64,000 nucleotides of DNA from positions 124,001 to 188,000 of the forward strand of contig JAFQTX010000037.1 of assembly GCA_017408825.1 (NCBI GenBank), read 5' to 3'. Position numbers and translations under genes: made by a program. The notes under the pieces are model-generated. The model was given only the letters and a program-made list of their open reading frames with translations. It was not told where the DNA came from and did no database searches. The DNA comes from Alistipes sp. (lineage in GTDB: Bacteria > Bacteroidota > Bacteroidia > Bacteroidales > Rikenellaceae). Shown here piece after piece: positions 25,866 to 46,085 of the stretch; positions within the stretch are counted from its first letter, which is position 1; each line of letters opens with the position of its first letter.

Positions 25866-26160
<295 letters not shown>

Positions 26161-28190: not shown

Positions 28191-28502
28191 TTGAAAGGGT
28201 TGTTCGCCCGCTTGTGGCGGGCTAAAGGGGGCTGAAAGAGTAGTTCGCCCGCTGAAGCGGGCTAAAGGGTAGTTCGTGCCTTGCGGCACTAAAGAGTAGT
28301 AGAAAGGGTTTTCCCTTTAGCAAGCGTCAGCTTGCGAACTACCCTTTAGCTGCGAAGCAGCGCTCTACCCTTTAGCTGCGATAGCAGCGCCCTACCCTTT
28401 AGCTGCGATAGCAGCGAGCCACCCTTTAGCTGCGATAGCAGCGCTCTACCCTTTAGCAAGCGCCAGCTTGCGAACCACCCTTCAGCCCGCTCCGCTTGCG
28501 CC
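28191..28502. repeat. CTAAAGGG hairpin array A1
   Basis: About ten units of roughly 30 bp: a linker CTAAAGGGT(A/T)G plus a short perfect hairpin. Left of centre the linkers read CTAAAGGG, right of centre the complement CCCTTTAG. The centre near 28300-28320 is GTAGTAGAAAGGG-TTTT-CCCTTTAGC. Stem types include CCCGCTGAAGCGGG, GTGCCTTGCGGCAC, GCTGCGATAGCAGC and CAAGCGTCAGCTTG. It starts at the stop codon of the LytTR regulator gene, forming its 3' region. Confidence 0.85.
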
Positions 28503-29234
28503 CTACGCCTTGAAGTGCTCGAAGAAGCGCTCTTTATAGTTCTCGCCAAGAGGGATATACTCGCCATTGTCGAGGAAGATACGTCCCTTGGTGTAGCTCG
28601 AGATGCGCTTGAGGTTCACGATATAGGAGCGGTGCACACGCAAGAAGAGGTTGGCGGGCAATGTGGTCTCCATATTCTTAAGCCTAAAGAGCGTAGTGAT
28701 CGTTGGACCTCCCTCGATATGCAGACGCACATACTCGCCAGCGCTCTCGAGGTAGACGATGTCGGCAATCTTGACAAGTTGCGTCTTATAATCAGCCTTG
28801 ACCGATATATAGTCCTGGTCGGCACTCTCGGCCTCGTTCTGCGCCACAACACTCTCGGCAGCACGGCACCTATCCACGAGGTCTACGAGCGAGATAGCCT
28901 TCTGCGACGCCTTCATAAACTCATCATAGCTGAAGGGCTTAAGCAGATAGTCGATGGCATTGAGCTTGAAGCCCTCGAGGGCAAACTCCGAGTGCGCCGT
29001 GGTGAATACTATATAGTGGGTCGAGGTGAGACTACGCACAAACTCAAGACCATTCATATCGGGCATATTGATATCGACAAAAATAAGGTCTACGCTCTCA
29101 CGAGCAAGCACCTCTTGTGCCTCGTGTGCACTGCGACACGTGGCCACAAGGTGTAGCTGCTCGGTACGCTCGATATAGCTACGTATCTGTCGTAGAGCCA
29201 GAGGCTCGTCATCAATTGCAATACATCTTACCAT
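28503..29234 (-). CDS. LytTR-type response regulator
   Basis: 243 residues: receiver domain (1-120) with DDEP near residue 8, the phospho-acceptor Asp in VDLIFVDINMPDMNGLEF (about 55) and a conserved KPFSYDEF, followed by a LytTR DNA-binding domain (about 145-240, with DIVYLESAGEYVRLH and FLRVHRSYIVNL). It probably binds DNA after phosphorylation by the kinase encoded 3 bp upstream. Regulators of this family control cell-wall, adhesion or nutrient genes; the target is not visible. The gene ends in hairpin array A1. Confidence 0.93.
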   Translation of the reverse strand: MVRCIAIDDEPLALRQIRSYIERTEQLHLVATCRSAHEAQEVLARESVDLIFVDINMPDMNGLEFVRSLTSTHYIVFTTAHSEFALEGFKLNAIDYLLKPFSYDEFMKASQKAISLVDLVDRCRAAESVVAQNEAESADQDYISVKADYKTQLVKIADIVYLESAGEYVRLHIEGGPTITTLFRLKNMETTLPANLFLRVHRSYIVNLKRISSYTKGRIFLDNGEYIPLGENYKERFFEHFKA

Positions 29235-29237
29235 ATG

Positions 29238-30287
29238 CTAATGTGTTACAGGGATTACAAGTTTTACAATATATCGTTGTGGGTCGCCATCCTCCTTATC
29301 GAGTTGGTAGCGACTATCGAAAAGTAGGTCGAGACGCTTGGTGATATTGTTAAGGCCTATGCCACTATGCTCCGTGGAGTGCGACATAGAGCGGCTGTTG
29401 GCCACAACACACGTAAGCTCGTCGTCATCGACATATATGTTGATATGTATGAACGACTCTTGGTTATAGCTTATGCCGTGCTTAAAGGCGTTCTCCACAA
29501 GCACGATGAGTAGCAGCGGTGGTAGCGACACTCGGCGACAGGTATTCATATCGGGGTGCGTAAACTCGATATCGACGTCGTCGGCAAAGCGTATGCGCAT
29601 AAGCTCGATATAGTTGGTGATAAACTCCACCTCCTTATCCAGCGAGGTATAACTCTCACCCGAGTCGTAGAGCACGTGGCGCATCATACGTGAGAGGTCC
29701 ATAACGCTCTTGCGTGCCATCTCGCTATCGAAGTCGATCATAGCGTGGATGTTGTTGAGAGTGTTCATCAGAAAGTGGGGATTTATCTGATACTTCAAAT
29801 ACTGCATCTGTATCTCGATATTCTGTCTCTGCAACTGCGCCATATGCTGCTCGGTGATTATTGAGCGGTAGTAGAGCTTTATCATCGAGTTAGCCCCCGC
29901 CATCAAGATGCCAAACAGCACGTTCCAATACCAGGCCAACTCCGTTAGCGAGGCCTTATCACGGAGGTCTACGTTGCTCTGCCAGTAGCGGAAGTCGAGC
30001 ACCTCGATAGTACCAAACACCGAGGCTACGAGCGTAATGAGCAGCACGATATACCAGCCATACCTATTGCGCATAAGCAGCGGCGTGAGCAGGTAGTTGT
30101 GCACCAGAAAGATAAAGAAATAGGGCAAAATCTTAACCCACGAGATGATCACCTTGCCAAAGTCGATAGCCTCCTCCGACATCAGGTGAGCATTCATAAA
30201 TGGGATAAGGAAGATGGCAGCCCATACGCAGGCGTAGAGCATATTCTCGCCGATCCACAGATTTCTGATTGCACCCTTAATGTTCAT
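29238..30287 (-). CDS. LytS/YehU-type sensor histidine kinase
   Basis: 349 residues from ATG 30287; a longer frame runs to 30410 but the upstream part has no membrane or domain sense and overlaps the promoter. Four hydrophobic segments span residues about 16-150. The His-kinase domain has the phospho-acceptor in YQINPHFLMNTLNNIHAMID and an ATPase domain with LLLIVLVENAFKHGI (N-box) and GIGLNNITKRLDLLF (G-box). It forms a two-component pair with the adjacent LytTR regulator. Confidence 0.9.
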   Translation of the reverse strand: MNIKGAIRNLWIGENMLYACVWAAIFLIPFMNAHLMSEEAIDFGKVIISWVKILPYFFIFLVHNYLLTPLLMRNRYGWYIVLLITLVASVFGTIEVLDFRYWQSNVDLRDKASLTELAWYWNVLFGILMAGANSMIKLYYRSIITEQHMAQLQRQNIEIQMQYLKYQINPHFLMNTLNNIHAMIDFDSEMARKSVMDLSRMMRHVLYDSGESYTSLDKEVEFITNYIELMRIRFADDVDIEFTHPDMNTCRRVSLPPLLLIVLVENAFKHGISYNQESFIHINIYVDDDELTCVVANSRSMSHSTEHSGIGLNNITKRLDLLFDSRYQLDKEDGDPQRYIVKLVIPVTH

Positions 30288-30293
30288 ACCCCG

Positions 30294-30324
30294 CAAATTT
30301 AACATATTTGTGCCAAACATCAAA
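30294..30324 (-). promoter_or_regulatory. Promoter of the two-component operon, nearly leaderless
   Basis: Minus strand TTTG, 19 bp, TAAATTTG (plus: CAAATTTA at 30294-30301, CAAA at 30321-30324). With usual spacing transcription starts about 30290, only 3 nt before the ATG at 30287. Confidence 0.5.
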
Positions 30325-30398
30325 GCAAATTGCTCAATTATAAACGACAGCGTGGTTTTGTTCAACGAGTGTTCGTTGGAAGCACTTTGATTTTTGGG

Positions 30399-30809
30399 GG
30401 TAGGGCGCAAGCTGGCGCTTGCTAAAGGGTGGGGCGCTCGCCTGTGGCGAGCTAAAGGGTGGCTCGCAAGCAGAGCTTGCTAAAGGGTAGGGCGCTGCTG
30501 GCGCAGCTAAAGAGTAGAGCGCTGCTGCGCAGCTAAAGGGAAAAAACTCCCTTTCTACTACTCTTTAGTGCCGCAAGGCACGAACTACCCTTTAGCCCGC
30601 CTTAGCGGGCGAACTACCCTTTCAGCCACCCTTTAGCCCGCCTCAGCGGGCGAACAACCCTTTCAGCTACCCTTTAGCCCGCTTCAGCGGGCGAACAACC
30701 CTTTCAACTACCCTTTAGCCCGCTTCAGCGGGCGAACAACCCTTTCAACTACCCTTTAGCCCGCTTCAGCGGGCGAACAACCCTTTCAGCAACCCTTTAG
30801 CCCGCCACT
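30399..30809. repeat. CTAAAGGG hairpin array A2
   Basis: About 13 units of the same design as A1, in opposite polarity about the centre at about 30530-30565 (GCTAAAGGG-AAAAAA-CTCCCTTTCTAC, then the GTGCCGCAAGGCAC stem). The right half holds five near-identical units with the CCCGCTTCAGCGGG stem. It lies between the stop of the SDR gene and the kinase promoter. Confidence 0.85.
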
Positions 30810-31601
30810 CTACACCCGTTGCAGCAGGCGCTTGACTGGTGGTAGCAGTAGAAACAGATCGAGAACACGTGCGGGGAGTATGGCGCAGAGGGCCACGACA
30901 AGTTTAGTAAAAAGGCCCGGGGTGACACGTCTACGGCCACGGAACATAGCCCTCACACCACGACGTGCTATGCGCTCGGGGCGCATCATAACACCCAGCA
31001 GCACAAACTTTCGACGCAGCTTGTCGCTGAGATTATAGAACGGCGTGTCTACCGCCCCGGGGAAGAGCAGCGTGACACTAACACCCGAGCGGTGCAGCTC
31101 GTACCACAGGGCCGAGCCGAAGCTCTTGAGGTAGGCCTTCGTGGCGCTATAGTGCGAGATTGTGGGATAGGGCAACCACGCCGTAGATGACGACATTATG
31201 AGTATACGTCCACGACGTAGCTCCTTCATACGCTGGCCATAGTAGCGGCATAGTAGCGTTGTGGTGGTGCAGTGCAGGGTGATAATCTTCGTCAGAGACT
31301 CTGGGGCGGTGTTCACCAACGTAGAGAAGAGCAGCATACCTGCATTGCAGATAAGTATCTCCACCTCAAGACCTTGACTACGTGTGTAGTTATATATCTC
31401 GAGTGCTGCATCCTCGCGCGCAAGGTCGCAACATAGTGAACGAGCCTCAACACCATACTCACGACGAAGCTCCTCTGCGGTGGCATCGAGCTCCTGAGGC
31501 TGATTGCTCACTGCGATGATATTATAGCCACGTGCGGCCATCTCTGTGGCGTAGTGGCGACCAATGCCCGACGAGGCACCTGTGATTAATGCATAGTTCA
31601 T
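30810..31601 (-). CDS. Short-chain dehydrogenase/reductase
   Basis: 263 residues. Classical SDR signature: cofactor motif TGASSGIGRHYA at 7-18, CNAGM near 87, catalytic Ser in MSSSTAWLPYP and YSATKAYLKSFG (Tyr and Lys of YxxxK) near 155. The C-terminal tail is hydrophobic and basic, as in membrane-associated SDRs such as DltE-like or 3-ketoacyl reductases. Substrate unknown. A -7 box TAACTTTG at 31606-31613 (minus) would leave almost no leader. The gene ends in hairpin array A2. Confidence 0.88.
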   Translation of the reverse strand: MNYALITGASSGIGRHYATEMAARGYNIIAVSNQPQELDATAEELRREYGVEARSLCCDLAREDAALEIYNYTRSQGLEVEILICNAGMLLFSTLVNTAPESLTKIITLHCTTTTLLCRYYGQRMKELRRGRILIMSSSTAWLPYPTISHYSATKAYLKSFGSALWYELHRSGVSVTLLFPGAVDTPFYNLSDKLRRKFVLLGVMMRPERIARRGVRAMFRGRRRVTPGLFTKLVVALCAILPARVLDLFLLLPPVKRLLQRV

Positions 31602-31690
31602 AGTGCAAAGTTAGCGAAATTTTGCTACCTTTGTATCATCTAAGAAGTCGAAATAAAATTCAAACAGCTTCTAAAAGTCGAAAAAAGAGT

Positions 31691-32182
31691 ATGGCCAAGC
31701 GCATAGAGAAGACAAACGCCGCACGACTGCTCGACAGAGCAAAGATAGAGTACGAGTTAGTACCCTACGCCGTAGACGAGAGTAACCTCGCCGCAACACA
31801 CGTTGCCGAAGAGCTGGGCGAAGATATAGCCACAGTATTCAAGACCCTTGTGCTGCGTGGCGACCGCCAAGGGCTGTTCGTATGCGTGATACCGGGCGAT
31901 AAGGAGGTAGACCTAAAGGCCGCAGCACGTGTGTCGGGGAATAAACGAGCCGAGATGTTAGCTATGAAGGAGCTGCTACCCACCACAGGGTATATTCGTG
32001 GCGGATGCTCACCCATAGGGATGAAGAGACCCCTGCCCACCTACGTTCACTCCTCGGCATTGGAGCACGAGCGCATCTACATAAGTGCTGGCGTGCGTGG
32101 TATGCAGATAGCCATAAATCCAAACGACCTCATTGCCTTTGTTGGCGCCGAGGTCGAGGATATCATTGTTGAGAGAGAGTAG
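31691..32182 (+). CDS. ybaK: Cys-tRNA(Pro)/aminoacyl-tRNA deacylase YbaK/EbsC
   Basis: 163 residues from ATG 31691 (preceded by AAGAG; an earlier in-frame start at 31622 overlaps the -7 box TACCTTTG at 31626-31633). The phrases KTNAARLLDRAKIEYEL, VFKTLVLRGD, VCVIPGDKEVDLKAAA and GYIRGGCSPIGMKRPLPTYV (quoted in pieces) are those of YbaK, which hydrolyses mischarged Cys-tRNA(Pro) in the cytoplasm. Length normal. The convergent kinase gene ends 8 bp after its stop. Confidence 0.92.
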   Translation: MAKRIEKTNAARLLDRAKIEYELVPYAVDESNLAATHVAEELGEDIATVFKTLVLRGDRQGLFVCVIPGDKEVDLKAAARVSGNKRAEMLAMKELLPTTGYIRGGCSPIGMKRPLPTYVHSSALEHERIYISAGVRGMQIAINPNDLIAFVGAEVEDIIVERE

Positions 32183-32190
32183 AGCTGTCA

Positions 32191-33177
32191 TCAACCGAGC
32201 GTGGCTAAGAACGAGCGATTGACAACAACTCGCACCTTGCGGTGTACGTTGTGTAGCTCAACAGGGGTGACACCAAAGAGCTCACCGTCGATCTCGAGCA
32301 TAGTCTCGGGAGAGGACTCTATGCGTATCTTACGCCCCTGAGCGTGTATCACGTGGCCGATGGTGTAGATGCTACCATTGAAGAAGCGCTTGAGACGGAA
32401 GATAATATTCCACCAGTGCATAGGACGTATTATCGTAATATCCAACAATCCATCGTCGGCAACAGCCTCGGGGAGCTGCTGGATACCTCCACCGTTATAC
32501 TTACCTACGCCGATGGCGATACTAAAGAGCAGGTTGTTGTAGACAAGTCTATCGTCGATCCACACCTTGACACCCGTAGGCTTATATCTGAAGAAGGTGT
32601 TTACCAGCGCACGTATATAGAGGCTACGTCCTCGAGCCCCTCGAGAGCGCATCTGCATACCTCGCTCGATGACCGCTGCATCGAAGCCCAAGCCCGCAAC
32701 ATTGGCCATATAACGCACCTGACGGTAGCGTGACTCCTCATACTCCACCGTGGCAACATCCTGCAAGAAGGTATACCCCTCCTTAATGGCACGTATAGCC
32801 TCGGAGTAGCGCTTCGGGATGCCGAACATACGTATCCAGTCGTTGCCCGTACCCACGGCAATAACGCCAATGGTAACTGCCTCAGGCTCTACGACCTGCT
32901 GTATAAAGAGGCCATTGACGACCTCGTGCAGTGTGCCATCGCCACCCACGACGATGATACAGCGGTAGCCCGAGTTGATGGCCGACACCGTAAGCTCCGT
33001 GGCGTGGCACCTATGCTCGGTGAAGACCGCCTCCGAGCGAATACCATTATCACGCAGCAGCTTTGATATAAGCGGAAAGTCGTCGAGCCCCTTACCCGAG
33101 CCGGATATGGGGTTCACGACGACAAACCAGCGAACATCAGCCTCAAGCGTAGCTCTATCAATAGCCTGCTCGTTCAT
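32191..33177 (-). CDS. Diacylglycerol/lipid kinase (YegS/DagK family)
   Basis: 328 residues. VVVNPISGSGKG near residue 18 and the nucleotide-binding VVGGDGTLHEVVNGL near 77 define the DAGK catalytic domain; VIAVGTGNDWIRMFGIP follows. The C-terminal half with GGGIQQLPEAVADDGLLDITII and the ESSPETMLEIDGE segment matches the beta-sandwich domain (EIDGE motif) of soluble bacterial lipid kinases. It phosphorylates diacylglycerol or another lipid at the inner membrane. It is 20 bp downstream of pepD and may be cotranscribed. Confidence 0.92.
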   Translation of the reverse strand: MNEQAIDRATLEADVRWFVVVNPISGSGKGLDDFPLISKLLRDNGIRSEAVFTEHRCHATELTVSAINSGYRCIIVVGGDGTLHEVVNGLFIQQVVEPEAVTIGVIAVGTGNDWIRMFGIPKRYSEAIRAIKEGYTFLQDVATVEYEESRYRQVRYMANVAGLGFDAAVIERGMQMRSRGARGRSLYIRALVNTFFRYKPTGVKVWIDDRLVYNNLLFSIAIGVGKYNGGGIQQLPEAVADDGLLDITIIRPMHWWNIIFRLKRFFNGSIYTIGHVIHAQGRKIRIESSPETMLEIDGELFGVTPVELHNVHRKVRVVVNRSFLATLG

Positions 33178-33197
33178 AGCTGAGTATCATAGCATTA

Positions 33198-34658
33198 CTA
33201 CTTGCGAGGTGCGTTACGCAACGTGTTGAGCAAGAAGTCGTAGAACTTCTCGACAGATGCGATGTTCACCTTCTCGTCTGGAGAGTGTGGATAGCAGATT
33301 GTAGGACCAAACGAGATCATATCCATACCGGGATACTTAGCACCGATGATACCGCACTCCAAGCCTGCGTGGATAGCCGTAACGGCTGGCTTCACGCCGT
33401 AGAGCTTCTCGTACGACTCAAGCATAGTGTGAAGAATAGGCGACTTCATATTTGGGTTCCAGCCGCTATACGAGCCTGTGAGCTCAACATCGGCACCTGC
33501 AAGCTCGAATACCGATGAGATAGCACCTGCCAACTCGCCCTTCTCGGTATCTACCGACGAGCGCAACAAGCACTGTACCTTGATAGTAGTGCCATCCGAC
33601 ACCACGATAGCGAGGTTAGAGGATGTCTGCACAAGACCCTCCATAGCAATAGACATACGCTGAACACCATTAGGACAGCCACATACCGCACGAATCAATG
33701 AGTGCGACTCGAGGTGTGGGATGATAGCCTTAGGACACTCAACCTCCTCGGCAAAGATCTCGATAGAGTCCTCGATGCCCTCGAACTCCTTAATGATCAC
33801 CTTCTCGTAAGACTTCACGTTAGCCTCGAAGATAGCCTTCTCAGCCTCACGAACAACAACCACTGCCCAAGCCTCACGTGGGATAGCATTACGCATATTA
33901 CCACCCTCAACGGCTGCAAGCTCCAAGCCGTAAGACTCGGTCTCCTGACGCAAGAGGCGGAAGAGCACCTTATTAGCATTAGCACGCTGAGTGCCAATCT
34001 GGATACCTGAGTGGCCACCCTTCAAGCCCTTTACAGTGACCTTATAGGCAGCAAACTTACCCTCCAAGGGCTGCTCACGATACTTAAACGTAACATTCAC
34101 ATCCATACCACCAGCGCAACCTACATACAACTCGCCCTCAGTCTCTGAGTCGAGGTTAAGCAGGATATCGCCCTTGAGCATACCGCTCTTAAGGCCGAAA
34201 GCACCATCCATACCTGTCTCCTCGGTAGCCGTAAACAAGCACTCGAGAGGACCGTGCTGAAGCTCAGCATCCTCCATAGCGGCCATAGCAGCAGCCAAGC
34301 CGATACCGTTGTCAGCACCAAGAGTAGTGCCATTGGCTGTCACCCACTCGCCGTCGATATATGCCTCGATAGGGTCTGTCGAGAAGTTAAACTCCTTGTC
34401 GTTGTTCTTCTGTGGCACCATATCGGTATGCGCCTGAAGGATGATACCCTTGCGATCCTCCATACCTGGTGTTGCAGGCTTATAAACATATACGTTCTGC
34501 GCCTCATCGACCTTATGCTCGAGGCCAAGCTCCTCGGCCCACTTAACGATATAAGCGCGAATAGCATCCTCCTCGTGTGAAGGGTGAGGGATGTTACAAA
34601 TCTCAGCAAAGTGCTTCCATACCAATGCTGGCTTCAAACCTTTCAAATTCTTGTCCAT
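33198..34658 (-). CDS. pepD: Aminoacyl-histidine dipeptidase (M20 family)
   Basis: 486 residues, the usual length of PepD. Metal-binding motifs of the M20 family are visible: ILQAHTDMVPQK (first His and Asp, about 78), GTTLGADNGIGLAAAMA (bridging Asp) and FTATEETGMDGAFGL (catalytic Glu pair); further ligands are in LLNLDSETEG and near the C-terminus HAGLECGII. It hydrolyses Xaa-His and other dipeptides in the cytoplasm. Upstream is repeat array R5, which leaves only about 30 bp for promoter elements; none was recognised. Confidence 0.95.
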   Translation of the reverse strand: MDKNLKGLKPALVWKHFAEICNIPHPSHEEDAIRAYIVKWAEELGLEHKVDEAQNVYVYKPATPGMEDRKGIILQAHTDMVPQKNNDKEFNFSTDPIEAYIDGEWVTANGTTLGADNGIGLAAAMAAMEDAELQHGPLECLFTATEETGMDGAFGLKSGMLKGDILLNLDSETEGELYVGCAGGMDVNVTFKYREQPLEGKFAAYKVTVKGLKGGHSGIQIGTQRANANKVLFRLLRQETESYGLELAAVEGGNMRNAIPREAWAVVVVREAEKAIFEANVKSYEKVIIKEFEGIEDSIEIFAEEVECPKAIIPHLESHSLIRAVCGCPNGVQRMSIAMEGLVQTSSNLAIVVSDGTTIKVQCLLRSSVDTEKGELAGAISSVFELAGADVELTGSYSGWNPNMKSPILHTMLESYEKLYGVKPAVTAIHAGLECGIIGAKYPGMDMISFGPTICYPHSPDEKVNIASVEKFYDFLLNTLRNAPRK

Positions 34659-34689
34659 AATTAAATTAAATATTTAGTTGTTAGTTGTT

Positions 34690-34975
<286 letters not shown>

Positions 34976-34981
34976 TTCTCT

Positions 34982-35977
34982 CTACTCCTTTGGTTTTAGG
35001 CCATTTTCAAGGGCCTCACGCCTGTCGAAAGCATCGACGATATACTTCACAAGCTGGTGGCGCACAATATCTCGCTTGTCGAACTCCACCTGACCTATGC
35101 CGTCGATACCTCGCAGTGTCTCCATAGCACGAGTAAGGCCACTATCCGAGCGGCGTGGGAGGTCGATCTGCGTGACATCGCCCGTGACGATAAACTTGGC
35201 ATTGCGGCCCATACGCGTAAGAAACATCTTTATCTGCGAGAGCGTGGTGTTCTGCGCCTCATCCAAGATTACAAAGGCGTTGTCCAGCGTGCGGCCACGC
35301 ATATAGGCCAACGGGGCAATCTGTATCGTCCCCTCCTCGATATACTTCTGGAGCTTGGCCGAGGGTATCATATCGCCCAGCGCATCGTAGAGAGGTTGTA
35401 GATAGGGGTCGAGCTTCTCCTTCATATCGCCAGGCAGGAAGCCGAGCTTCTCGCCAGCCTCCACAGCGGGGCGGGTCAATATTATGCGACGCACCTCACG
35501 CTCCTTTAAGGCACGTACCGCAAGGGCGATAGCCGTATAGGTCTTACCCGAGCCAGCAGGGCCTACGGCAAAGAGCAGGTCGTTACGCTCGGCGAGCTTC
35601 ACGAGGCGTTGCTGGTTGATTGTGCGGGCACGTATTATAGCGCCATTGTTGCCATAGACTATCACATCCTTATCTACGGCTGGGGGCTCTGCCGAAAGCT
35701 CCTCGAGGCTCGAGGAGAAGGCCTGAGAGACCACCTCCGACGATATATGGCCATACTTGATATAGTAGGCCACAAGGGCATTCATCCTACGCTCAAAGGC
35801 CGTCACATCGCTCTTAGCACCAAGAGCCTTGATGGTGTCGCCACGTGCCACAATCTTCAGCTTGGGACTTAGCTCACGCATCTGCTCGAGGTAGGCATTC
35901 TGCGCTCCGTAAAGCTCTCGGGCATCGACGCCCTCTATGAGTATCTCTTTCTGAATCTCTTCGCTCATACTCTTCAT
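34982..35977 (-). CDS. phoH: PhoH family ATPase
   Basis: 331 residues. Walker A GPAGSGKT at 139-146, Walker B in NAFVILDEAQNTT near 225 and MFLTRMGRNAKFIVTGDVTQIDLP (in parts) match the PhoH-like/YbeZ family of cytoplasmic ATPases linked to RNA and ribosome metabolism. An N-terminal KH-like region precedes the ATPase. The true start may be Met4. It is 1 bp downstream of the outer-membrane protein gene, so the pair is coupled. Confidence 0.93.
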   Translation of the reverse strand: MKSMSEEIQKEILIEGVDARELYGAQNAYLEQMRELSPKLKIVARGDTIKALGAKSDVTAFERRMNALVAYYIKYGHISSEVVSQAFSSSLEELSAEPPAVDKDVIVYGNNGAIIRARTINQQRLVKLAERNDLLFAVGPAGSGKTYTAIALAVRALKEREVRRIILTRPAVEAGEKLGFLPGDMKEKLDPYLQPLYDALGDMIPSAKLQKYIEEGTIQIAPLAYMRGRTLDNAFVILDEAQNTTLSQIKMFLTRMGRNAKFIVTGDVTQIDLPRRSDSGLTRAMETLRGIDGIGQVEFDKRDIVRHQLVKYIVDAFDRREALENGLKPKE

Positions 35978-35978
35978 A

Positions 35979-36641: not shown

Positions 36642-36675
36642 ACTATTAAAAATAGCGATACCTCGCAATATCTTC

Positions 36676-36706
36676 CAAAGGTACGATTTTTATTACAACA
36701 AACAAA
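36676..36706 (-). promoter_or_regulatory. Promoter of the outer-membrane protein/phoH operon
   Basis: Minus strand TTTG, 19 bp, TACCTTTG (plus: CAAAGGTA at 36676-36683, CAAA at 36703-36706). Consensus match; rules out the longest start at 36668 unless the mRNA is leaderless. Confidence 0.65.
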
Positions 36707-36755
36707 AATATCGGCTAATTATTTTATAAAGTTTTAATTATTCAACGATTTCGAT

Positions 36756-36763
36756 TATCTTTG
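36756..36763 (+). promoter_or_regulatory. -7 box upstream of hairpin array A3 and der
   Basis: TATCTTTG with only a T-rich -33 region. No other -7 box is seen before der, so the der mRNA would carry the whole array A3 in a leader of about 400 nt. Confidence 0.4.
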
Positions 36764-36779
36764 TGGCGTGGTATGCCCA

Positions 36780-37128
36780 CAAAGGGCAGAGGGGCAACCT
36801 CGGAGGGTGGCTCGCAAGCGGACGTTTGCTGAAGGGTAGAGCGAGCCTGCGGCTCTGAAGGGTGGCTCGCAAGCGGACGTTTGCTGAAGGGTAGGACGAG
36901 CCTGCGGCTCTAAAGGGTAGAGCGCAAGCTGGCGCTTGCTAAAGGGTAGGGCGCAAGCAGAGCTTGCTAAAGGGAAAAGACCCTTTCTACTACTCTTTAG
37001 TGCCGCAAGGCACGAACAACCCTTTAGCCCGCAATAGGCGGGCGAACAACCCTTTCAACAACCCTTTAGCCCGCATTAGCGGGCGAACAACCCTTTCGTA
37101 ACCCTTGAGGGCAGAGGGGGCGGGCGAA
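36780..37128. repeat. CTAAAGGG hairpin array A3, in the probable der leader
   Basis: About eleven units. Left stems include GCAAGCGGACGTTTGC (twice), GAGCCTGCGGCTC (twice), CAAGCTGGCGCTTG and CAAGCAGAGCTTG; the centre at about 36968-36990 is CTAAAGGG-AAAAGA-CCCTTTCTAC followed by GTGCCGCAAGGCAC; right stems are CCCGCAATAGGCGGG and CCCGCATTAGCGGG. Polarity is as in A2. Confidence 0.85.
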
Positions 37129-38469: not shown

Positions 38470-38655
38470 AAGGTCTTAATTTTTTAGGACCTTTAGGACC
38501 TTTAGGACTATAAGACCATTAGGACCATTAGGACCATTGGGACCATTACGAGGTCGGGTATCGGCTGTGGTCTCGGCCGTTGGCTGTTGGTGCTGCCTGC
38601 CGCAACCATCTTAATTGTCTTAAAGGTCTTAATCGTCTTAATTGTCTTATTTTTT
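38470..38655. repeat. 9-bp tandem-repeat array R6 (inverted orientation)
   Basis: (TTAGGACCT)n, (AGGACCATT)n, CCATTACGAGGTCGGGTAT, a TGTGGTCTCGGCCGTTGG block, TGCCGCAACCATCTTAATTG and (GTCTTAAAG)n. Starts directly after the der stop codon. It lacks the CTGGGGATA and CCCCATAAT parts. Confidence 0.7.
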
Positions 38656-38987
38656 TTCATCCAAGCGATAAATATATTTGTCGTTTGGATTTTTTTTACT
38701 AATTTCGCCGCCGAATATGCCTTAATAAGGCATAGTAAGGAGTGGTGTGAAACAACCGAAAAACAAATTTTAGGTAGGTTCTATAAATTAGGTCGAGTTG
38801 ATTTTGAAGATTATTGTGAGGATATTTCTTATTTATTATGATGGCGCAATGCGAGCATTGTAACTGAGGAAAAATCAGAAATATACCACAATAAATTCAA
38901 AAGCGACCGAAAAAGAGTCTGCCGAAAGCGTATAACATATTTACTAATTTATAGAACATACCTATAAACCTAATAAACTTTATAACC
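38656..38987 (+). other. AT-rich intergenic stretch before the IdeS-like operon
   Basis: Contains a -7-like TATATTTG at 38673-38680 and two short perfect inverted repeats: TATGCCTTAATAAGGCATA (about 38714-38732) and CAATGCGAGCATTG (about 38848-38861). A frame of 84 codons (38587-38841) starts inside R6 and is not credible as a gene. The region may be a long leader for the lipoprotein operon at 38988, or a decayed gene. Confidence 0.4.
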
Positions 38988-41024
38988 ATGAGAAAACTTT
39001 TCAACATTTGGGCAGTTATCCTCTGCGCTCTCGCAGTAGTTGGGTGCGAGAAGAGTCCTGTGGATGACGGCACAGGCACAGGTAACCAACCGACACCAGG
39101 CGCTACCCCTGAGATCACTCTTGAGCAGACAGCCATCGACTTCAACTCGTTTACGTTCAAGGTGACAACAAACGTCGAGGGTGAGCTTGGCTATGCAGTA
39201 GTTGCTGAGGGCAACTCAACACCTAAAATCGACGAGCTTTTTGCTCTCAACAGCGCCGAGATAAAGGATACGGCTACACTTACGGTATCGGACCTCAACG
39301 ACAATACGGCGTACACGCTCGTGGCAATACTTCGTGCAAAGGAGGATGGCACACTCAGCGAGCCTGCAAAGTTGGAGTTCACAACACCTGATGACGGTGT
39401 AGAGAACCCTATCGAGATTGAGGAGGTGACATACAGCAGCGTGACATTCACCATCAACATCGCTGGCAACTACCTCTTCCAGTGCATCGACAAGGCATAC
39501 TTGGAGCTTAACTCTCAGACCCCCGAGTCGTATATCAGCACTATGGGTATCGGCATCCCTGAGAAGGGTGTGCAGACTTTCGAGTGGGTTAATGGCTCGA
39601 AATATGGCAGCTACGATATGCGTCTTCGTGAGGATAGCGACTACTACATCATCGTAGCTATGAGCGACGGCAAGCAGAACGTAACGGGAGAGATCTTCGT
39701 AAAGCCTTTCCACACGCCTAAGCGCCCAGTATCGGAGGCAGGTATGACCATCGAGCTGAAGAACCCTTCATCTCATTCGATTACCATTGCAACAACTCCT
39801 GAAAGCTCTGTTGCCGAGTACTACGTATGGGTGGAGACCAAGGCAAACATTGAGTATTACGTCAAAGTTGGTGAAGGCGAGGCCATCTTGAACTCACTTA
39901 TCAAGAATACTAACTCTGGCTCTTGGCACCTCACCACGGCTAACGAGCAGACCTGGGAGCGTCTTACGCCTGATACCGACTACTACTGCTTGGTATATCT
40001 TATCGACAACAAGGGCAGCGAACTGATGCAGAAGGTTGAGTTCCGCACCTTGGGAAAGACCCTCGACGCACCTAAGGGCGAGATTAGCGTGACCCCAGCA
40101 GCGGAGAACCCTCATAAGACCCTCAACATTAACCTCTACTCGAAGGATGCTACGTCGGTAAAGGTAGCGTTCAACACAGCTGCCGACATTCAGGAGCAGC
40201 GCAACTCGGATAAGACAGATAGTGACATCGCAAGACAATATGGTATCGAGCTCAATGCCGAGCAGGTAGAGGCTGTTCGCACCACAGGTCTATCACTCAT
40301 CAACGAGGAGCTCTGGCCCGATACTGAGTATATTGCCGTGGTAAGCATCAAGAACATCGAGCAGACCGAGACTATCATCTGCTCAACAGGAACAACTCCT
40401 AAGAAGGCAGTGCCAGCACGTGTTGAGTCAGACCTCTTCGAGACATTGCAGGGTAAGTGGCTCGTATCATACGACCTTGTACAGGTAAATGGTGTGAACG
40501 TTTCTATCACCAACCAGGAGGTAACCATCGCAGCTGGTGCCGACGACAAGAGCGCCAAGGAGTACCGTGACCATAACCGCCTTGTGGTCCTCGGCTGGCC
40601 ATTCGACGTATCAGCAAAGGGCGAATTTAAGGAGGTACCATATATGTCTCCTGAGGACCTTGTTGAAGCATCGAGCTACTGGCGCAACTACGAGTCGTTG
40701 GTATATCGTGACTACGGTCCTAAGGTATTCTTCGAGATTGGCGAGGGTGATGTTATCACAATGCCTTCGGAGAGAAACCACTACCTCTATAACTGGGCCT
40801 CTGATGGCTACACACTCTACTTCTATGGCGCAGACTACGACGCTAAGCAGTCGGCACCTGCAACATTCCCTGTAACACTATCGGAGGATGGCAACACACT
40901 CACAATCGGTGCACACCACTCTGGCGCAGAGTTTAGCTTTGGCGTATATCGTCCATCGGTATTCCGTGATAATGAGATGTGGTCGGTTGCAACATCTGAC
41001 ATCATACTTAAGCGTGTTGAGTAA
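38988..41024 (+). CDS. Fibronectin-like surface lipoprotein, partner of the IdeS-like protease
   Basis: 678 residues. Lipobox Cys20 (LAVVGC) followed by EKSPVDDG. Four beta-rich repeats follow, the first two or three resembling fibronectin III domains (SDLNDNTAYTLVAILRA, ERLTPDTDYYCLVYLIDNKG, NEELWPDTEYIAVVSIKN). The last 200 residues (from LFETLQGKWLVSYDLVQVNG) look like a lipocalin-like or calycin barrel. There is no catalytic motif. It is 17 bp upstream of the protease gene, so the two are cotranscribed and may act together at the cell surface, for example as binding partner (inference). Confidence 0.75.
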   Translation: MRKLFNIWAVILCALAVVGCEKSPVDDGTGTGNQPTPGATPEITLEQTAIDFNSFTFKVTTNVEGELGYAVVAEGNSTPKIDELFALNSAEIKDTATLTVSDLNDNTAYTLVAILRAKEDGTLSEPAKLEFTTPDDGVENPIEIEEVTYSSVTFTINIAGNYLFQCIDKAYLELNSQTPESYISTMGIGIPEKGVQTFEWVNGSKYGSYDMRLREDSDYYIIVAMSDGKQNVTGEIFVKPFHTPKRPVSEAGMTIELKNPSSHSITIATTPESSVAEYYVWVETKANIEYYVKVGEGEAILNSLIKNTNSGSWHLTTANEQTWERLTPDTDYYCLVYLIDNKGSELMQKVEFRTLGKTLDAPKGEISVTPAAENPHKTLNINLYSKDATSVKVAFNTAADIQEQRNSDKTDSDIARQYGIELNAEQVEAVRTTGLSLINEELWPDTEYIAVVSIKNIEQTETIICSTGTTPKKAVPARVESDLFETLQGKWLVSYDLVQVNGVNVSITNQEVTIAAGADDKSAKEYRDHNRLVVLGWPFDVSAKGEFKEVPYMSPEDLVEASSYWRNYESLVYRDYGPKVFFEIGEGDVITMPSERNHYLYNWASDGYTLYFYGADYDAKQSAPATFPVTLSEDGNTLTIGAHHSGAEFSFGVYRPSVFRDNEMWSVATSDIILKRVE

Positions 41025-41041
41025 AACTATATATTGATAAT

Positions 41042-42754
41042 ATGAAGAAGATTTTATTTGTTATATTAGCTATCGCAGGCCTTGTGGCTTGCGATAGCAA
41101 AGAGCCATCTGTCGAGCTTAAGCCACAGCTTTTAGTCGATAAGGCTGAGATTATTGCTAATGGCGAGGACTTCGTAACATTCTTGGTAAAGTTTGATGGC
41201 AAGGATGTGACTGCAGATGCGACAATACACTATGCCGACAGCCACGAGGCATTGGAGGGTAATACCTTTAAGACCAAGTATGCTGGCGAGTATGAGTTCT
41301 ATGCGCAATATGGCTCGGCAAAGTCTGAGGTTTTGCAGGTCTATGCTAAGGAGGATAACGACACCCCTGGTCCAGAGCCTCAAGAGAAGGAGCTTAAGCT
41401 CTCGGTAGAGCCCGACACGATCTATGTTGATGAGAGCGCAACATTCAAAGTGGAGCTCGAGGGTAATGATGTTACCTCGGAGGCTACAATCTACCTCAAG
41501 GAGGGCGACGTGGCACTCGAGGGTGCTACCTACACCGCCACTGCCGAGGGTGTATATGCCTTCTACGCCAAGTATGAGGATGCAACATCGAACACCGTAG
41601 AGCTTAACGTGCGTATGAAGATTGTCGAGGAGGAGAAGCCTATCAAGATTACTGCCACCGAGACCACCATCAAGGCTAATGGCGTAGACTCTACAAAGTT
41701 CACCGTAACGCAGGATGGCGCTAACGTAACCGACAAATCGACCATCTATGTCAATGAGAGCATCCTCAATGGCAACCGCTTTATCACTACCACCCCTGGC
41801 ACATACATCGTATATGCCGTAAAGGGCGAGCAGCGCTCTAACGAGCTGACAATCACCGCTGAGGAGGTTAGCTCTACGGGCAAGACCATCGTCTTTGCTG
41901 AGGGCGTAACGCTTAGCTCGGGTTGGTACGATGTGAATAAGAAGGGTCAGGGCGACAATGGCGATATGAATATGTGCTGGGCTGCCACCTCATCGAATAT
42001 GATTCAGTGGTTCCAGGATCGCTACAAGGCTGCGGGCAAGACTCTACCAGCCGAAGCTACTGACGGCCCTGGTGTTACCTCATACACCAACTATGGCCCT
42101 TACGAGTTGGAGCTTATGAACGTATTCCACTCAGAGTGGGACAACTCACGTGGCGGTCATATGCAGGAGGCTATTCCTTGGTACTTCGAGGGTAAGCTCA
42201 ATGGTGGCGAGTTTGCTTCGGCAGGCTCTCAGGCAGTGCCTAAGACCGCTGGTGGCTACTGGAAGAGCATCTGGGATAGCGAGGTATATCCAAATATCTA
42301 CCACGGATACGAGAATGTCATCGTTCCAGGTGTTGCGGGTCTCGACCTTAAGGACCTCTATATCACCATCTTCAACAACTACTACCTCTGGGGTAATGGT
42401 ACTGATTTGTTGGGCGCAGAGCGCTTGGCAAAGTTCTCTGAGCTTATTGTCGAGTCGTTCAAGTATGGTCTGGCAGGTCTTACAGTCAATCTCGGCGCTA
42501 ACCTCAACGCCATAAGCCACGCTGTTACGCTGTGGGGCTACGAGATTGACAACAGCACAGGCCTCGTAACACGTCTTTGGATCACCGACTCTGACGACCT
42601 GATGTCAGAGCCTAAGACCCCTCTACTCAACGAGTATAGCGTATCTATCGACGAGGGTAAGGCGAATATCAAACTTACGGGTAATACTCGCTACGGCGCC
42701 TGCTATGTGGTATCTATTCATCCATTCGCAGGATACGGTATTGGTATCGACTAA
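41042..42754 (+). CDS. IdeS/Mac-type cysteine endopeptidase lipoprotein
   Basis: 570 residues. Lipobox Cys17 (IAGLVAC) then DSKEP. Three Ig-like repeats of about 85 residues follow (starting near 26, 115 and 198; each has DATIHY/EATIYL/KSTIYV and a YEFYAQYG-like end). From about 283 comes a papain-fold domain of the Mac/IdeS family: SGWYDVNKKGQGDNGDMNMC with Lys near 302, nucleophile Cys312 in MCWAATSSNMIQWF, His493 in AISHAVTLWGYEID, and Asp516/Asp518 in WITDSDD. The order and spacing agree with streptococcal IdeS (Cys, His, then Asp about 22 residues on). IdeS cleaves the IgG hinge; the substrate here is unknown. It is exported and probably surface-anchored. Confidence 0.85.
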   Translation: MKKILFVILAIAGLVACDSKEPSVELKPQLLVDKAEIIANGEDFVTFLVKFDGKDVTADATIHYADSHEALEGNTFKTKYAGEYEFYAQYGSAKSEVLQVYAKEDNDTPGPEPQEKELKLSVEPDTIYVDESATFKVELEGNDVTSEATIYLKEGDVALEGATYTATAEGVYAFYAKYEDATSNTVELNVRMKIVEEEKPIKITATETTIKANGVDSTKFTVTQDGANVTDKSTIYVNESILNGNRFITTTPGTYIVYAVKGEQRSNELTITAEEVSSTGKTIVFAEGVTLSSGWYDVNKKGQGDNGDMNMCWAATSSNMIQWFQDRYKAAGKTLPAEATDGPGVTSYTNYGPYELELMNVFHSEWDNSRGGHMQEAIPWYFEGKLNGGEFASAGSQAVPKTAGGYWKSIWDSEVYPNIYHGYENVIVPGVAGLDLKDLYITIFNNYYLWGNGTDLLGAERLAKFSELIVESFKYGLAGLTVNLGANLNAISHAVTLWGYEIDNSTGLVTRLWITDSDDLMSEPKTPLLNEYSVSIDEGKANIKLTGNTRYGACYVVSIHPFAGYGIGID

Positions 42755-42771
42755 TCACAGGAAATGACAAA

Positions 42772-42808
42772 AAGGAGGTGGCTAATTAACGTTTAGCCAC
42801 CTCCTTTT
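42772..42808 (+). terminator. Terminator of the IdeS-like operon
   Basis: AAGGAGGTGGCTA pairs perfectly with TAGCCACCTCCTT around an ATTAACGTT loop, then TTTTC. It is the same hairpin as at 584-620. Confidence 0.85.
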
Positions 42809-42810
42809 TC

Positions 42811-43112
42811 GCACCTAAAGGTGCTAAAGGGTAGAGCGCTGCTACGCAGCTAAAGGGTAGGGCGCAAGCTGGCGCTTGCTAAAGGGTAGAGCGCTCGCCT
42901 GCGGCGAGCTAAAGGGTTGCTCGCCCGCTGAAGCGGGCTAAAGGGTTGTTCGTGCCTTACGGCACTAAAGGGTAGTAGAAAGGGAGTTTTTCCCTTTAGC
43001 TGCGTAGCAGCGCCCTACTCTTTAGCTGCGTAGCAGCGCCCTACCCTTTAGCAAGCGCCAGCTTGCGCACTACTCTTTAGCAAGCGCCAGCTTGCGAACA
43101 ACCCTTTCAACC
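42811..43112. repeat. CTAAAGGG hairpin array A4
   Basis: About ten units. Left stems GCACCTAAAGGTGC, GCTGCTACGCAGC, CAAGCTGGCGCTTG, CTCGCCTGCGGCGAG, CCCGCTGAAGCGGG and GTGCCTTACGGCAC; centre at about 42975-43000 GTAGAAAGGG-AGTTTTT-CCCTTTAGC; right stems GCTGCGTAGCAGC (twice) and CAAGCGCCAGCTTG (twice). It fills the gap between convergent genes and reaches the stop of the permease gene. Confidence 0.85.
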
Positions 43113-43117
43113 TCATA

Positions 43118-44563
43118 TCAGTCAAATGGCTCTATATCTGCATCAGCGGCCTTCCACGATGGCTTACGCAGTGCATATATAATAATAGGTATAATCACCA
43201 CGATGACCTCGCCAGCGATAAGCACACCATACCACACAGCCTTGCTACCCACGGCAATCTGCGACGGAGGGATGAAGCTAAGAACAAAGGCGAGTAGCGA
43301 CCCCGCAAAGCCCAAACCCGCAAGCAGCCACATAACGCCATTGCCACGACCAAGACGGAAGGGGCGCTCCACATCGGGCTTACGATAGCGTAGCACGATA
43401 GCCGCCGAGAACATCAGCATATACATCGTAAGGTACAACAGCACGGTAAGCTGCGAGAGGATCTGGTAGAAGGACTGCACCGAGGGCATAACGACAAACA
43501 GAGCGCTCACAACCGTGACGATACACCCCTGCACAAGGAGGATGTTACGCTGCACACCACGAGAGTTTGCCTTCTGGAAGAATGGTGGCAGGTAGCCCGC
43601 ACGACCCACCGCATAGATACCCTTCGACGGTCCAGAGACCCACGTAAGCACGCCTGCAAGCACGCCAAAGACCAACGCAATGGCGATGATAGGGCCGAGC
43701 CACGACATACGTAGGAAGGCAAAGTAGCGATCAAAGCCGATAAGAAGCGTCTGCGTGAGGCTTATATCCTTCTCGGGAACAATGATACCAAGGGCAAAGG
43801 TGCCGAGGATGAAGATAACTACCGTGACCAACGAGCCGAGGATGATGGCACGTGGGTAGTTGCGCTTGGGGTTCTCCACCTCCATAACGTGGATACCCAT
43901 CATCTCCATACCGGCATAGAAGAGGAAGATGCTCGAGGCTAAGACAAGATTTGAGAAGTTCGAGAGGTCGGGGAAGAAGCTGCGGTGCATATCGAGGTTG
44001 TTATGGCCACCCTTCGAGAGATAGACCACAGCGAGGAGTATGAGCAACGCCGCAGGGATTATCGTGCCGATGATACCACCCCACTTACTCACCTTGCCTA
44101 CCCAATCCAAGCCTCTGAGAGCAATTATCGTGGCTAACCAATAGATTGCCAACACCACTATGAGCGTGAAGACGCGGTTTGAGGCAAGTGCCGCATCGGC
44201 CGTGGGGTCTGTGCCGATAAATGCGATGCTCACAGCACCAAAGGTAAGTACCGTAGGATACCACACCGTAGATTGTATCCACTGCAACCATATAGCCACA
44301 AAGCCTATACGTGGGCCAAAGGCCTCGCCCACCCAGCGAAAGACACCACCCTGCTTGTTTGAGAACATCGCCGCAAGCTCGGCAGCGACCAGTGCCGTAG
44401 GGACGAGGAATACAATGGCCGCAAAGAGGTAGTAGAAGGCCGACTGAAGGCCATAAACCGCCTCGGAGGCGAGTCCTCGTAGGCTCACAACGGCCGTCAC
44501 GTTCATCACCACAAGGGTGAGCACGCTGAGCCTAAAACCATTAGTTTGTTTTGCTTTATCCAT
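43118..44563 (-). CDS. APC-family amino-acid antiporter, GadC-like
   Basis: 481 residues from ATG 44563 (MDKAKQTNGF); the frame extends ten codons further but that start is poor. About twelve hydrophobic segments are present. The N-terminal LRGLASEAVYGLQSAFYYL and WVGEAFGPRIGFVAIWLQWIQSTVWYPTVL (in part) resemble the glutamate/GABA antiporter branch of AA_permease_2 proteins; exact substrates cannot be read. No glutamate decarboxylase gene is adjacent. Inner membrane. Hairpin array A4 lies at its 3' end. Confidence 0.85.
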   Translation of the reverse strand: MDKAKQTNGFRLSVLTLVVMNVTAVVSLRGLASEAVYGLQSAFYYLFAAIVFLVPTALVAAELAAMFSNKQGGVFRWVGEAFGPRIGFVAIWLQWIQSTVWYPTVLTFGAVSIAFIGTDPTADAALASNRVFTLIVVLAIYWLATIIALRGLDWVGKVSKWGGIIGTIIPAALLILLAVVYLSKGGHNNLDMHRSFFPDLSNFSNLVLASSIFLFYAGMEMMGIHVMEVENPKRNYPRAIILGSLVTVVIFILGTFALGIIVPEKDISLTQTLLIGFDRYFAFLRMSWLGPIIAIALVFGVLAGVLTWVSGPSKGIYAVGRAGYLPPFFQKANSRGVQRNILLVQGCIVTVVSALFVVMPSVQSFYQILSQLTVLLYLTMYMLMFSAAIVLRYRKPDVERPFRLGRGNGVMWLLAGLGFAGSLLAFVLSFIPPSQIAVGSKAVWYGVLIAGEVIVVIIPIIIYALRKPSWKAADADIEPFD

Positions 44564-44626
44564 AACAGTAAATTTAAGTGTTACTCGCCACACGATGCAA
44601 TTATAGTACCTAATGAGTTCATATCT

Positions 44627-45808
44627 CTAAAACGGACAATCGTCATCATCTGTCACATTTGTCACATCCGTCACACTTGTCACATCCGTCACATCCGTCA
44701 CATTAGGGCACACCCCTGTGACAGTGTGACAGCGTGACAGCGTGACAAAAGCATCATCAGAGGTAGCGACCTCAGCCGTAGGGGTGCATACAAGGTTATC
44801 GTTGGCAACGAGCAAGCCCCTATCTATGAGGCGCTTAATCTGCATAGAGGCCGTGGAGCGCTTTAGGCCCTTGGTCTCGATAAGCCTATTCACAAGCGTC
44901 GTGCGCTCGATAGCGCCACCATAGACCTCATCGACAATGGAGACTATGTCGTTACGCTCGCCCTCATTTCGTGGCAGGTCGCAGAGCTCGGGGATGCCCT
45001 CAGCGTTAATCGCGAAGGCAAAACGCTCGAAGGGCTCGTTGCGACAGAACTGCGGCTCGACAACCGACCTTTCACCCACACGGTGTACGAAGAGCACGCT
45101 CTCGGACTTGCGCTGCAACGACGAGCCGAGGTGGCCACGTGCCTTGTCGCTACCAGGATTGGTATGCAACACACATATTATATGTGTATTGGTACGTGTC
45201 GATAGCGCCATAAGCTCCGCAACCAGCGCATCGCTCTCCTCCAAGTCGTTGGTATTGCGTTGTAGGTCGGCGATGCCATCAATGACTATGATGTCGTAGA
45301 CACCTACACGCAGAGCATCGTACAACATAGCCTTGCGGTCGTGCGGAGCAAGCTCACGTAGGGCAAGGGTCGTGAGTCGTGGCTCGCACCTTAGCCCCGT
45401 GACGGCTGCTCCTGTCATCGTAGCGATGCGTGAGATAACCTTGCGCACGTGACGCTCACCCTGCTCGGTATCAACCCACAGAACATTCAAATACATATTA
45501 TTATCTATGTTTTTGAAGTTGTTGATACACCTTGCAGGTAGCGATATGGCTGAGGCTACAAGCGCCGAGGTTAGGAATGTCTTGCGAGACTTTGCCTCGC
45601 CACATATGGCCGAGATATTACCTCGAGAGCATACACACGCACCATTAATACTTATTAATGGCTCGATGTCGGGTAGCTCCTTCGACATATCTACGACGTA
45701 GGGTACTACACGCTCACGTGCCATATCCTCCTCGAGGAGCTGCTCAGGCGTGGGAGCGTTGATGATGCGGTCGATAACCGCTGCATTGAGATTGGAGTTG
45801 TCAGACAT
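44627..45808 (-). CDS. RepA-like AAA ATPase with a repetitive C-terminal tail
   Basis: 393 residues. The ATPase core of the hexameric-helicase RepA/AAA_25 type has Walker A CGEAKSRKTF near residue 69 (a variant P-loop), LWVDTEQGERHVRKV near 108, Walker B DIIVIDGIADL near 173 and CVLHTNPGSDKARGHLGSS near 215. A winged-helix-like segment follows (TLVNRLIETKGLKRSTASMQIKRLIDRGLL, in part). The tail from about 370 consists of VTDVTD-type repeats encoded by a 9-bp DNA repeat, ending DDDDCPF. Such ATPases usually belong to plasmids or mobile elements, but no integrase or relaxase is near. Its 5' leader likely includes hairpin array A5. Confidence 0.8.
   Translation of the reverse strand: MSDNSNLNAAVIDRIINAPTPEQLLEEDMARERVVPYVVDMSKELPDIEPLISINGACVCSRGNISAICGEAKSRKTFLTSALVASAISLPARCINNFKNIDNNMYLNVLWVDTEQGERHVRKVISRIATMTGAAVTGLRCEPRLTTLALRELAPHDRKAMLYDALRVGVYDIIVIDGIADLQRNTNDLEESDALVAELMALSTRTNTHIICVLHTNPGSDKARGHLGSSLQRKSESVLFVHRVGERSVVEPQFCRNEPFERFAFAINAEGIPELCDLPRNEGERNDIVSIVDEVYGGAIERTTLVNRLIETKGLKRSTASMQIKRLIDRGLLVANDNLVCTPTAEVATSDDAFVTLSRCHTVTGVCPNVTDVTDVTSVTDVTNVTDDDDCPF
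44640..44745. repeat. TGTGACGGA-type nonamer repeat, inverted partner of 46211-46255
   Basis: Within the 3' end of the ATPase gene: six or more copies of GTCACATCC, then GGGCACACCCCTGTGACAGT and GACAGCGTGACAGCGTGAC. The second part is repeated in inverted orientation about 1.5 kb away. Confidence 0.75.
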
Positions 45809-45835
45809 AGAGATTAAATTATAAATTGGTGATTA

Positions 45836-46085
45836 GAGAGGGTTGGGCGAGCCTGCGGCTCTAAAGGGTTGTTCGCCCGCTGAAGCGGGCTAAAGAGTAG
45901 TTCGCACCTAAAGGTGCTAAAGGGTAATTGAAGGGAGTTTTTTCCCTTTAGCTGCGTAGCAGCGCACAACTCTTTAGCTGCGTAGCAGCGCACAACTCTT
46001 TAGCTGCGAAGCAGCGCACTACCCTTTAGCTGCGAAGCAGCGCACTACCCTTTAGCTGCGTAGCAGCGCTCAACCCTTTCGTTCA
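45836..46085. repeat. CTAAAGGG hairpin array A5, in the probable ATPase leader
   Basis: About eight units: left stems GAGCCTGCGGCTC, CCCGCTGAAGCGGG and GCACCTAAAGGTGC; centre at about 45928-45955 GAAGGGAG-TTTTTT-CCCTTTAGC; then five units of GCTGCGTAGCAGC or GCTGCGAAGCAGC. A minus-strand promoter lies beyond it at 46106-46136. Confidence 0.85.

Follow-up and report, generated by a model that had tools for sequence, protein, structure and literature searches.

The five arrays of hairpin-bearing repeat units between positions 28191 and 46085 of a 64,000-nucleotide stretch of an Alistipes sp. genome (contig JAFQTX010000037.1, positions 124,001 to 188,000; the whole stretch is referred to as the window) probably belong, as dispersed and non-autonomous copies, to a family of mobile repeats in which the gene-bearing member consists of a 4helix_suffix gene between inverted arrays and the encoded protein would drive the spread. 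The evidence suggests a mobile repeat system of a type not yet described, which we propose to be similar to the REPtrons of repetitive extragenic palindromes (REPs), with a partner other than a REP-associated tyrosine transposase (RAYT). The genome of the window, denoted G000, is a draft of 1.89 Mb in 44 contigs and 83% complete, and all but a few of the genomes compared with it are drafts as well.

All arrays follow the layout [hairpin-CTAAAGGG-TAG..]n - centre - [..CTA-CCCTTTAG-hairpin]n, with the linker core TAAAG[AG]GT[AGT]GNNC and the centre AAAGGG-(A/T run)-CCCTTT. The original prediction had described five arrays whose constant CTAAAGGG-type linkers point to a centre, adjoined in four of them by a GTGCC stem, and both points are confirmed; its 8-13 units per array are corrected to 8-11 by a recount. 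That every unit consists of a constant linker and a short perfect hairpin applies to most units, whereas some are hairpin-less, some hairpins are imperfect and array 3 contains diverged linkers. Clusters of at least four hairpins (stem of at least 5 bp) occur five times in the window, each time at one of the arrays. At gathering score, Rfam finds only tRNA in the window, and the arrays match no known structured RNA.

The five arrays are present as described; the pattern, however, is genome-wide, with at least 22 arrays in G000 (at least two linkers, callable neighbours). The pattern CTAAAGGGNNG gives 54 + 48 matches in this genome versus 2 + 1 for a reversed control pattern. Among 180 genomes of the genus, linkers are most numerous in G096 (115), G060 (78) and G000 (71), followed by G076 (9), G111 (7) and G105 (4), with 0-3 in the others. 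A two-unit pattern run against the GTDB genomes, a search that possibly left out the window's own record, returned 51 stretches, all but one in metagenome-assembled genomes (MAGs) titled Alistipes sp. or Rikenellaceae; the exception is a MAG titled Prevotella sp., and several of the MAGs come from roe deer, sheep and cattle gut. All 43 orientation changes within arrays of G000, G060 and G096 are convergent, in a set made slightly redundant by the overlapping content of the G096 loci L080 and L081.

Within the units the linker is constant and the stem varies. Among the linker matches in the fetched loci, a perfect stem of at least 5 bp directly precedes the linker in 83% of 159 (G000), 78% of 102 (G060) and 84% of 153 (G096) cases, and these values drop to 11%, 17% and 22%, respectively, when arms are swapped between units. 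In G000, 132 linker matches have a perfect stem, five have a single mismatch (one of these outside arrays) and 22 have more mismatches or no stem, while hairpin loops vary freely, which supports pair-preserving change of the stems. The common stems are GCCCGC, GCAAGC, GCTGC, GTGCC and GCACC in G000, GCAAGC, GCAGGC and GCTCGC in G060, and GCGCC, GCAGGC and GCTCGC in G096; the linker is common to all three although the stems differ by species. The tetranucleotide GTAG (also GTTG or GTGG) stands three bases before the non-conserved stem. The spacing of GGGTAG-type motifs is bimodal, with 26-30 bp on the one hand and 11-12 bp on the other, the latter belonging to hairpin-less units of the form GGGTAGTTGAA(A); extrusion of the hairpin would leave about this spacing. 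Mutual information between stem and spacer is raised for the dinucleotide of the own unit as well as for that of the next unit and thus gives no definition of the exchanged segment. Inspection of two arrays by eye, without a formal test, showed no pairing of NN dinucleotides across the arms. The proposal of unit exchange or duplication under selection for hairpins is upheld as far as duplication is concerned, by runs of identical units and subfamilies sharing unit order; selection for hairpins is unproven, because template-switch correction of palindromes could also keep the stems perfect.

The 76 arrays of the three genomes (same definition as above) are intergenic, with four overlapping a short open frame. 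In the window, with unit counts read by eye as left plus right arm, array 1 (28191-28502, 3+7 units) lies between a permease gene (26422-28128, minus strand), on its promoter side, and a gene for a LytTR response regulator (28503-29234, minus), on the side of its stop codon. Array 2 (30399-30809, 5+6 units and one partial, with 41-bp double-linker units in its right arm) directly adjoins a short-chain dehydrogenase gene (30810-31601, minus) at its stop codon, and array 4 (42811-43112, 6+4 units) lies between convergent genes, immediately behind a terminator-like hairpin with a T run. Array 3 (36780-37128, 6+3 units), which contains two GCAAGCGGACGTTTGC units as well as diverged TGAAGGG linkers, is located in the der leader, between the der promoter-like sequence and the start codon (37165, plus). 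Array 5 (45836-46085, 3+5 units) lies upstream of a gene for an AAA-domain protein (44627-45808, minus), between its start codon and a sequence that is promoter-like by the Bacteroidetes consensus. The arrays could alternatively be untranslated-region RNA elements, namely transcript ends, stabilisers or leaders, with hairpins selected as RNA and no need of a gene for their spread. The intergenic location, the many arrays near stop codons and the perfect stems agree with this explanation, as does the share of arrays between divergent genes (13 of 76 versus 34 of 130 array-free intergenic gaps, counts compared without a significance test). We nevertheless consider it quite improbable, since two of the five window arrays have a promoter-like sequence on one side and a start codon on the other, these arrays are missing at the same genes in nearly all species of the genus, and mismatches in the G000 stems are too few for wobble pairs to show a strand preference.

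The arrays move between sites, as is evident from their dispersal and from empty sites. The arrays of G000 fall into subfamilies with a common order of units, mostly at 78-91% identity and on either strand. Members of one subfamily are found at unlinked sites, in either direction, and beyond the array itself they have hardly any homology or none; in the pairs shown, it ends within about 50 bp of the array, except for contig-end duplicates and overlapping stretches. The site of array 1 is empty in G076, and the array of the der leader is absent in all 19 other species (20 loci, G096 being represented twice), where G096 carries another repeat in the leader and G097 and G056 have longer gaps. In the der tree G076 is the sister of G000, and G000 with G076 and G060 with G096 form separate pairs; deeper nodes are weakly supported.

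The original prediction had suggested looking for a protein restricted to array-bearing genomes, and this check was productive: it gave a 4helix_suffix gene outside the window and led away from local unit exchange towards a family of mobile repeats that has a partner gene. Comparison of the open frames near arrays, both inside single genomes and from one genome to another, revealed a recurrent set adjoining a bamD-like gene that includes a 183-codon gene (G000, C25:93911-94459). This gene lies between two complete convergent arrays in G000, G060, G076 and G105. Homologs of its product are present in 57 of the 180 genomes, but those with at least 86% identity are found only in these four, all of them array-bearing, and the next best reaches 59%. 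The G000 protein matches the NCBIfam families 4helix_suffix (TIGR04258) with 69.7 bits (cut-off 40) and TIGR02436 with 26.4 bits (cut-off 24). Four of four proteins compared with TIGR04258 score 60.2-70.1 bits, above its curated cut-off. Pfam family PF05635 (23S_rRNA_IVP) matches 13 of 13 relatives at E-values up to 0.01; the two scores listed for proteins of the CTAAAGGG-associated group, family 1, are 25.9 and 27.7 and thus below the gathering value of 33.8. The family-1 gene is located beside bamD and the other loci beside protein genes, not inside the 23S rRNA gene. A dN/dS ratio of 0.07-0.12 among the four family-1 copies, calculated with our own Nei-Gojobori script, indicates purifying selection. 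In the order, TIGR04258 occurs in 20 of 198 genomes drawn (G000 included). PADLOC yields no match for 13 family members. In the literature searched, with preprints and most subscription journals outside the search, there was no mention of 'four helix bundle suffix', TIGR02436 or TIGR04258, nor any title or abstract start on an association of 4helix_suffix with repeats.

In several species, arrays and 4helix_suffix genes have genes for large lipoprotein-like DUF6562 proteins as neighbours (L103:4406-8008, L099:1-2832). In a profile search of a viral collection the sole contig encoding a 4helix_suffix relative is L305 (IMGVR_UViG_3300014039_000053). A viral origin of the system was considered and rejected, as no match to the array pattern of two units was found in viral_contigs and the one protein relative shares 40% identity.

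Genes and repeats are strongly associated in Alistipes, and less so in other genera. It was assessed at 43 Alistipes 4helix_suffix loci, i.e. 30 from the homolog search and 13 of 20 fetched in addition, the other seven being second copies of loci already included. At 40 of the 43 loci, at least one 600-bp flank gave output from a tandem-repeat finder. Tandem repeats of at least 60 bp lie within 600 bp upstream at 65% of the loci versus 3% of 226 control genes, and downstream at 49% versus 8%; the longest array in the 70 repeat-bearing flanks has a period of 9 in 24 cases and of 10 in 12. Inverted repeats are found in 42 of 82 gene flanks and 99 of 452 control flanks. After exclusion of five loci because their flanks were short or their genes partial, both flanks are alike (E-value of at most 1e-4) at 32 of 38 testable loci as opposed to none of 219 control genes. 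Outside the genus, in a set that excludes the loci of G000, a duplicate, two partial genes and one gene without tblastn match, this signal is present at 6 of 21 testable loci versus 3 of 109 control genes (p = 0.0005).

The flank repeats differ from gene to gene and, as judged from correlated sequence similarity, co-diverge with the 4helix_suffix protein. Protein identity and shared flank repeats correlate with a Spearman coefficient of 0.33 for 41 proteins and of 0.35 for the 37 proteins left after removal of the CTAAAGGG clade, values which none of 500 permutations reaches in either case. The repeats of the genes G000:C25, G000:C38 and G060:C16 are commonest in the other loci of their own genome. 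Comparison of the gene pairs L232/L244, L210/L243 and L215/L220 (first eight matches shown; the L215 contig ends near the gene) yields a main homology block made up of the gene flanked on either side by 44-181 bp, along with some additional, shorter matches. Between G000:C32 and G068:C10 an 891-bp block containing the gene is 98.8% identical and the next block downstream 90.9%, and between G000 and G105 synonymous-site differences amount to 23% in the partner gene as compared to 62% in the adjoining bamD and 59% in der. These are signs that species have recently exchanged the gene-bearing unit.

A different explanation would be that the arrays are self-driven satellites, generated by replication slippage, template switching at palindromes and host recombination, and that the helix-bundle gene is a passenger living or tolerated among the repeats. 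Runs of identical units, duplicated multi-unit blocks, the existence of hairpin-less units, the 4helix_suffix loci devoid of a flank signal and the G096 arrays without an intact cognate gene are in line with it. Bacterial short tandem repeats and satellites likewise have tandem units of 9-12 bp; the present arrays differ from them in the inverted arms about a centre and in the gene between arrays. The lack of flank-shared repeats at every control gene, the co-divergence of protein and repeat, the purifying selection on the gene and the arrays of one subfamily at unlinked sites in both orientations render this explanation rather unlikely. Were the helix-bundle protein nevertheless a passenger, the arrays alone would be a variant of REP-like repeats.

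Several observations weigh against a mobile family driven by the 4helix_suffix protein. The protein has no recognised catalytic domain, and its action on DNA is something we infer. G096, which has the most linkers, contains only a 61% homolog that is in pieces and beside another repeat, and G111 has no homolog, although its contig starts inside an array beside bamD, likely at an assembly break. Conversely, G076 and G105 carry the gene yet few linkers. Six of the 38 Alistipes loci (L213, L216, L231, L238, L245 and L247) and 15 of the 21 loci outside the genus are without flank signal. When the dispersal of cognate repeats was ranked by species in 20-kb der loci, which sample about 1% of a genome, the gene's own species came top in 6 and bottom in 8 of the 24 testable cases, and most of the genes showed no dispersal in this sample. 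The draft state of nearly all genomes adds to these points.

Under the preferred reading of a protein-driven mobile family, the gene-bearing unit would comprise the 4helix_suffix gene, encoding a four-helix-bundle, 23S-rRNA-IVP-like protein of about 183 amino acids, between two complete inverted arrays. We infer that this protein, probably an oligomer, acts as the driver; it would recognise the conserved short repeat rather than the variable stems, in the present case GGGTAG(NN)..AAA at a spacing of about 11-13 nt once hairpins are extruded. In our view the conserved repeat is the most likely target, since linkers are conserved and stems free to vary in species whose proteins are 84-93% identical. 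With help from the protein, arrays may then be copied or exchanged into intergenic sites where they were absent before, and recombination between linkers may expand, shrink and shuffle the units.

That dispersed extragenic repeats can have a partner gene dedicated to them is known from RAYTs. PMC2817692 gives as marks of RAYTs that they are flanked by inverted REPs, co-evolve with them and correlate with the abundance of the cognate REP. The first two marks are seen here with another protein family and the third in part, and a RAYT is absent from 26 of 26 Alistipes drafts, so that the system is proposed to be REPtron-like in its working and not a member of that class. Common to both are small intergenic many-copy palindromes in inverted mosaic arrays (102 linker matches in G000), a gene flanked by cognate repeats (here the 32 of 38 loci, with a different protein family), gene-repeat co-divergence and species-specific bursts. 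In contrast to REPtrons, the partner is a four-helix-bundle protein instead of a Y1 HUH transposase, linkers are conserved and stems variable, which is the reverse of REPs, and the arms are strictly convergent, with hairpin-less units of 11-12 bp. Intergenic palindromes, mosaic inverted arrays and the GTAG-like motif near each hairpin would also suit classical REPs or bacterial interspersed mosaic elements moved by a RAYT. That is highly improbable here, as stems are not conserved and the search for Y1_Tnp was negative in all 26 Alistipes drafts inspected, including G000, G060, G096, G076 and G105, while the same search was positive for 8 of 9 genomes from other genera and for 5 of 14 controls; a RAYT/Y1 transposase as mover was rejected on these grounds.

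A single-sequence model of the 4helix_suffix protein is all-helical at low confidence (mean predicted local distance difference test score 61.5). The top two Foldseek matches are chains of 2rld, an S23-family protein from Bacteroides (E-values 0.15 and 0.21); none reaches 0.001. In a profile search 2gsc, Xcc0516, is fourth (E-value 0.17). According to a reference title in PMC3936711, Xcc0516 assembles five bundles. Rank 17 of the Foldseek matches is 8ub7_B, from a diversity-generating retroelement (DGR) ribonucleoprotein (E-value 0.94), and this weak match suggests a fold related to the DGR protein Avd. Avd is a nucleic-acid-binding pentamer. Unlike in DGRs, whose repeats were not looked for, there is no reverse transcriptase (PF00078) in 9 of 12 genomes, G060, G076, G105 and G096 among them, whereas it is present in G000 (at C8), G129 and G068; since it is missing from nine of these drafts, a reverse transcriptase seems not to be required for the system.

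With the intervening sequences of 23S rRNA and their proteins (PF05635/TIGR02436) the system shares the protein family of the partner gene, and these sequences are hairpin-forming inserts as well. The present genes differ by their position beside bamD or other protein genes, the TIGR04258 suffix domain and the dispersed repeats. What would be new is that the partner family is unrelated to RAYTs. If the protein-driven reading is true, a second, unrelated protein family with the REPtron signature of flanking cognate repeats, co-divergence and interspecies exchange would imply repeated evolution of systems of this kind, the family, whose function is unknown, would obtain a testable role, and there may be a bearing on the origin of rRNA intervening sequences. 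It is a fair possibility, put forward tentatively, that 4helix_suffix proteins drive widespread mobile extragenic repeats in Bacteroidales, each with its own 9-12-nt repeat and without RAYT-type transposase or reverse transcriptase, and that 23S rRNA intervening-sequence relatives might do likewise for rRNA insertions. The repeats, which in G000 reach even the der leader, may affect expression, and they break assemblies.

The window contains a second repeat family with intergenic 9-bp units (GGTC/AAGACC and ACTGGGGAT/ATCCCC) in inverted arms, often about the centre GATACCCGACCTCG. The same GGTC family with centre GATACCCGACCTCG flanks the C38 4helix_suffix gene of G000, and two of the three 4helix_suffix genes of this genome have their repeats dispersed through the window. 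The arrays are located at 9775-10181 (GGTC/ACTGGGGAT units, centre GATRCCCGACCTCG), 13230-13614 (three centres), 19571-19707, 25864-26149, 34724-34966, 38474-38649, 56461-56657 and 60694-60875. Among loci of 20 species the family is commonest in the window. Its centre (GATACCCGACYTCGT) occurs in 13 of the 180 genomes, most often in G074 (90), G000 (67) and G096 (21), and a 4helix_suffix homolog is present in 11 of these 13 versus 46 of the 167 others (p = 7e-5). A third dispersed hairpin, at 10281, 13705, 26221, 56771 and 59701, has a constant inside, GGATGGGACATACTTGGCGTATTTCCCATTC or the related form GGTAGTACTTGGGCGTAC, and outer stems that differ between copies yet still pair.

At 30289-30809, the place of array 2 in G000, four relatives contain an open frame between the two adjacent genes, by eye HAD-phosphatase-like, which seems to have been lost or moved in G000. 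Tandem 8-9-bp repeats of GTCACA type flank array 5 and its gene (44641-44747 and 46193-46282). The protein encoded at 41042-42754 has a partial match to Pfam Mac-1 (E-value 3.6e-13, 49.7 bits, residues 281-327), and variable homologs are found near der in several relatives. At the window edge (63605-64000) a 69-bp tandem coding-like repeat is, by eye, perhaps part of a leucine-rich-repeat gene.

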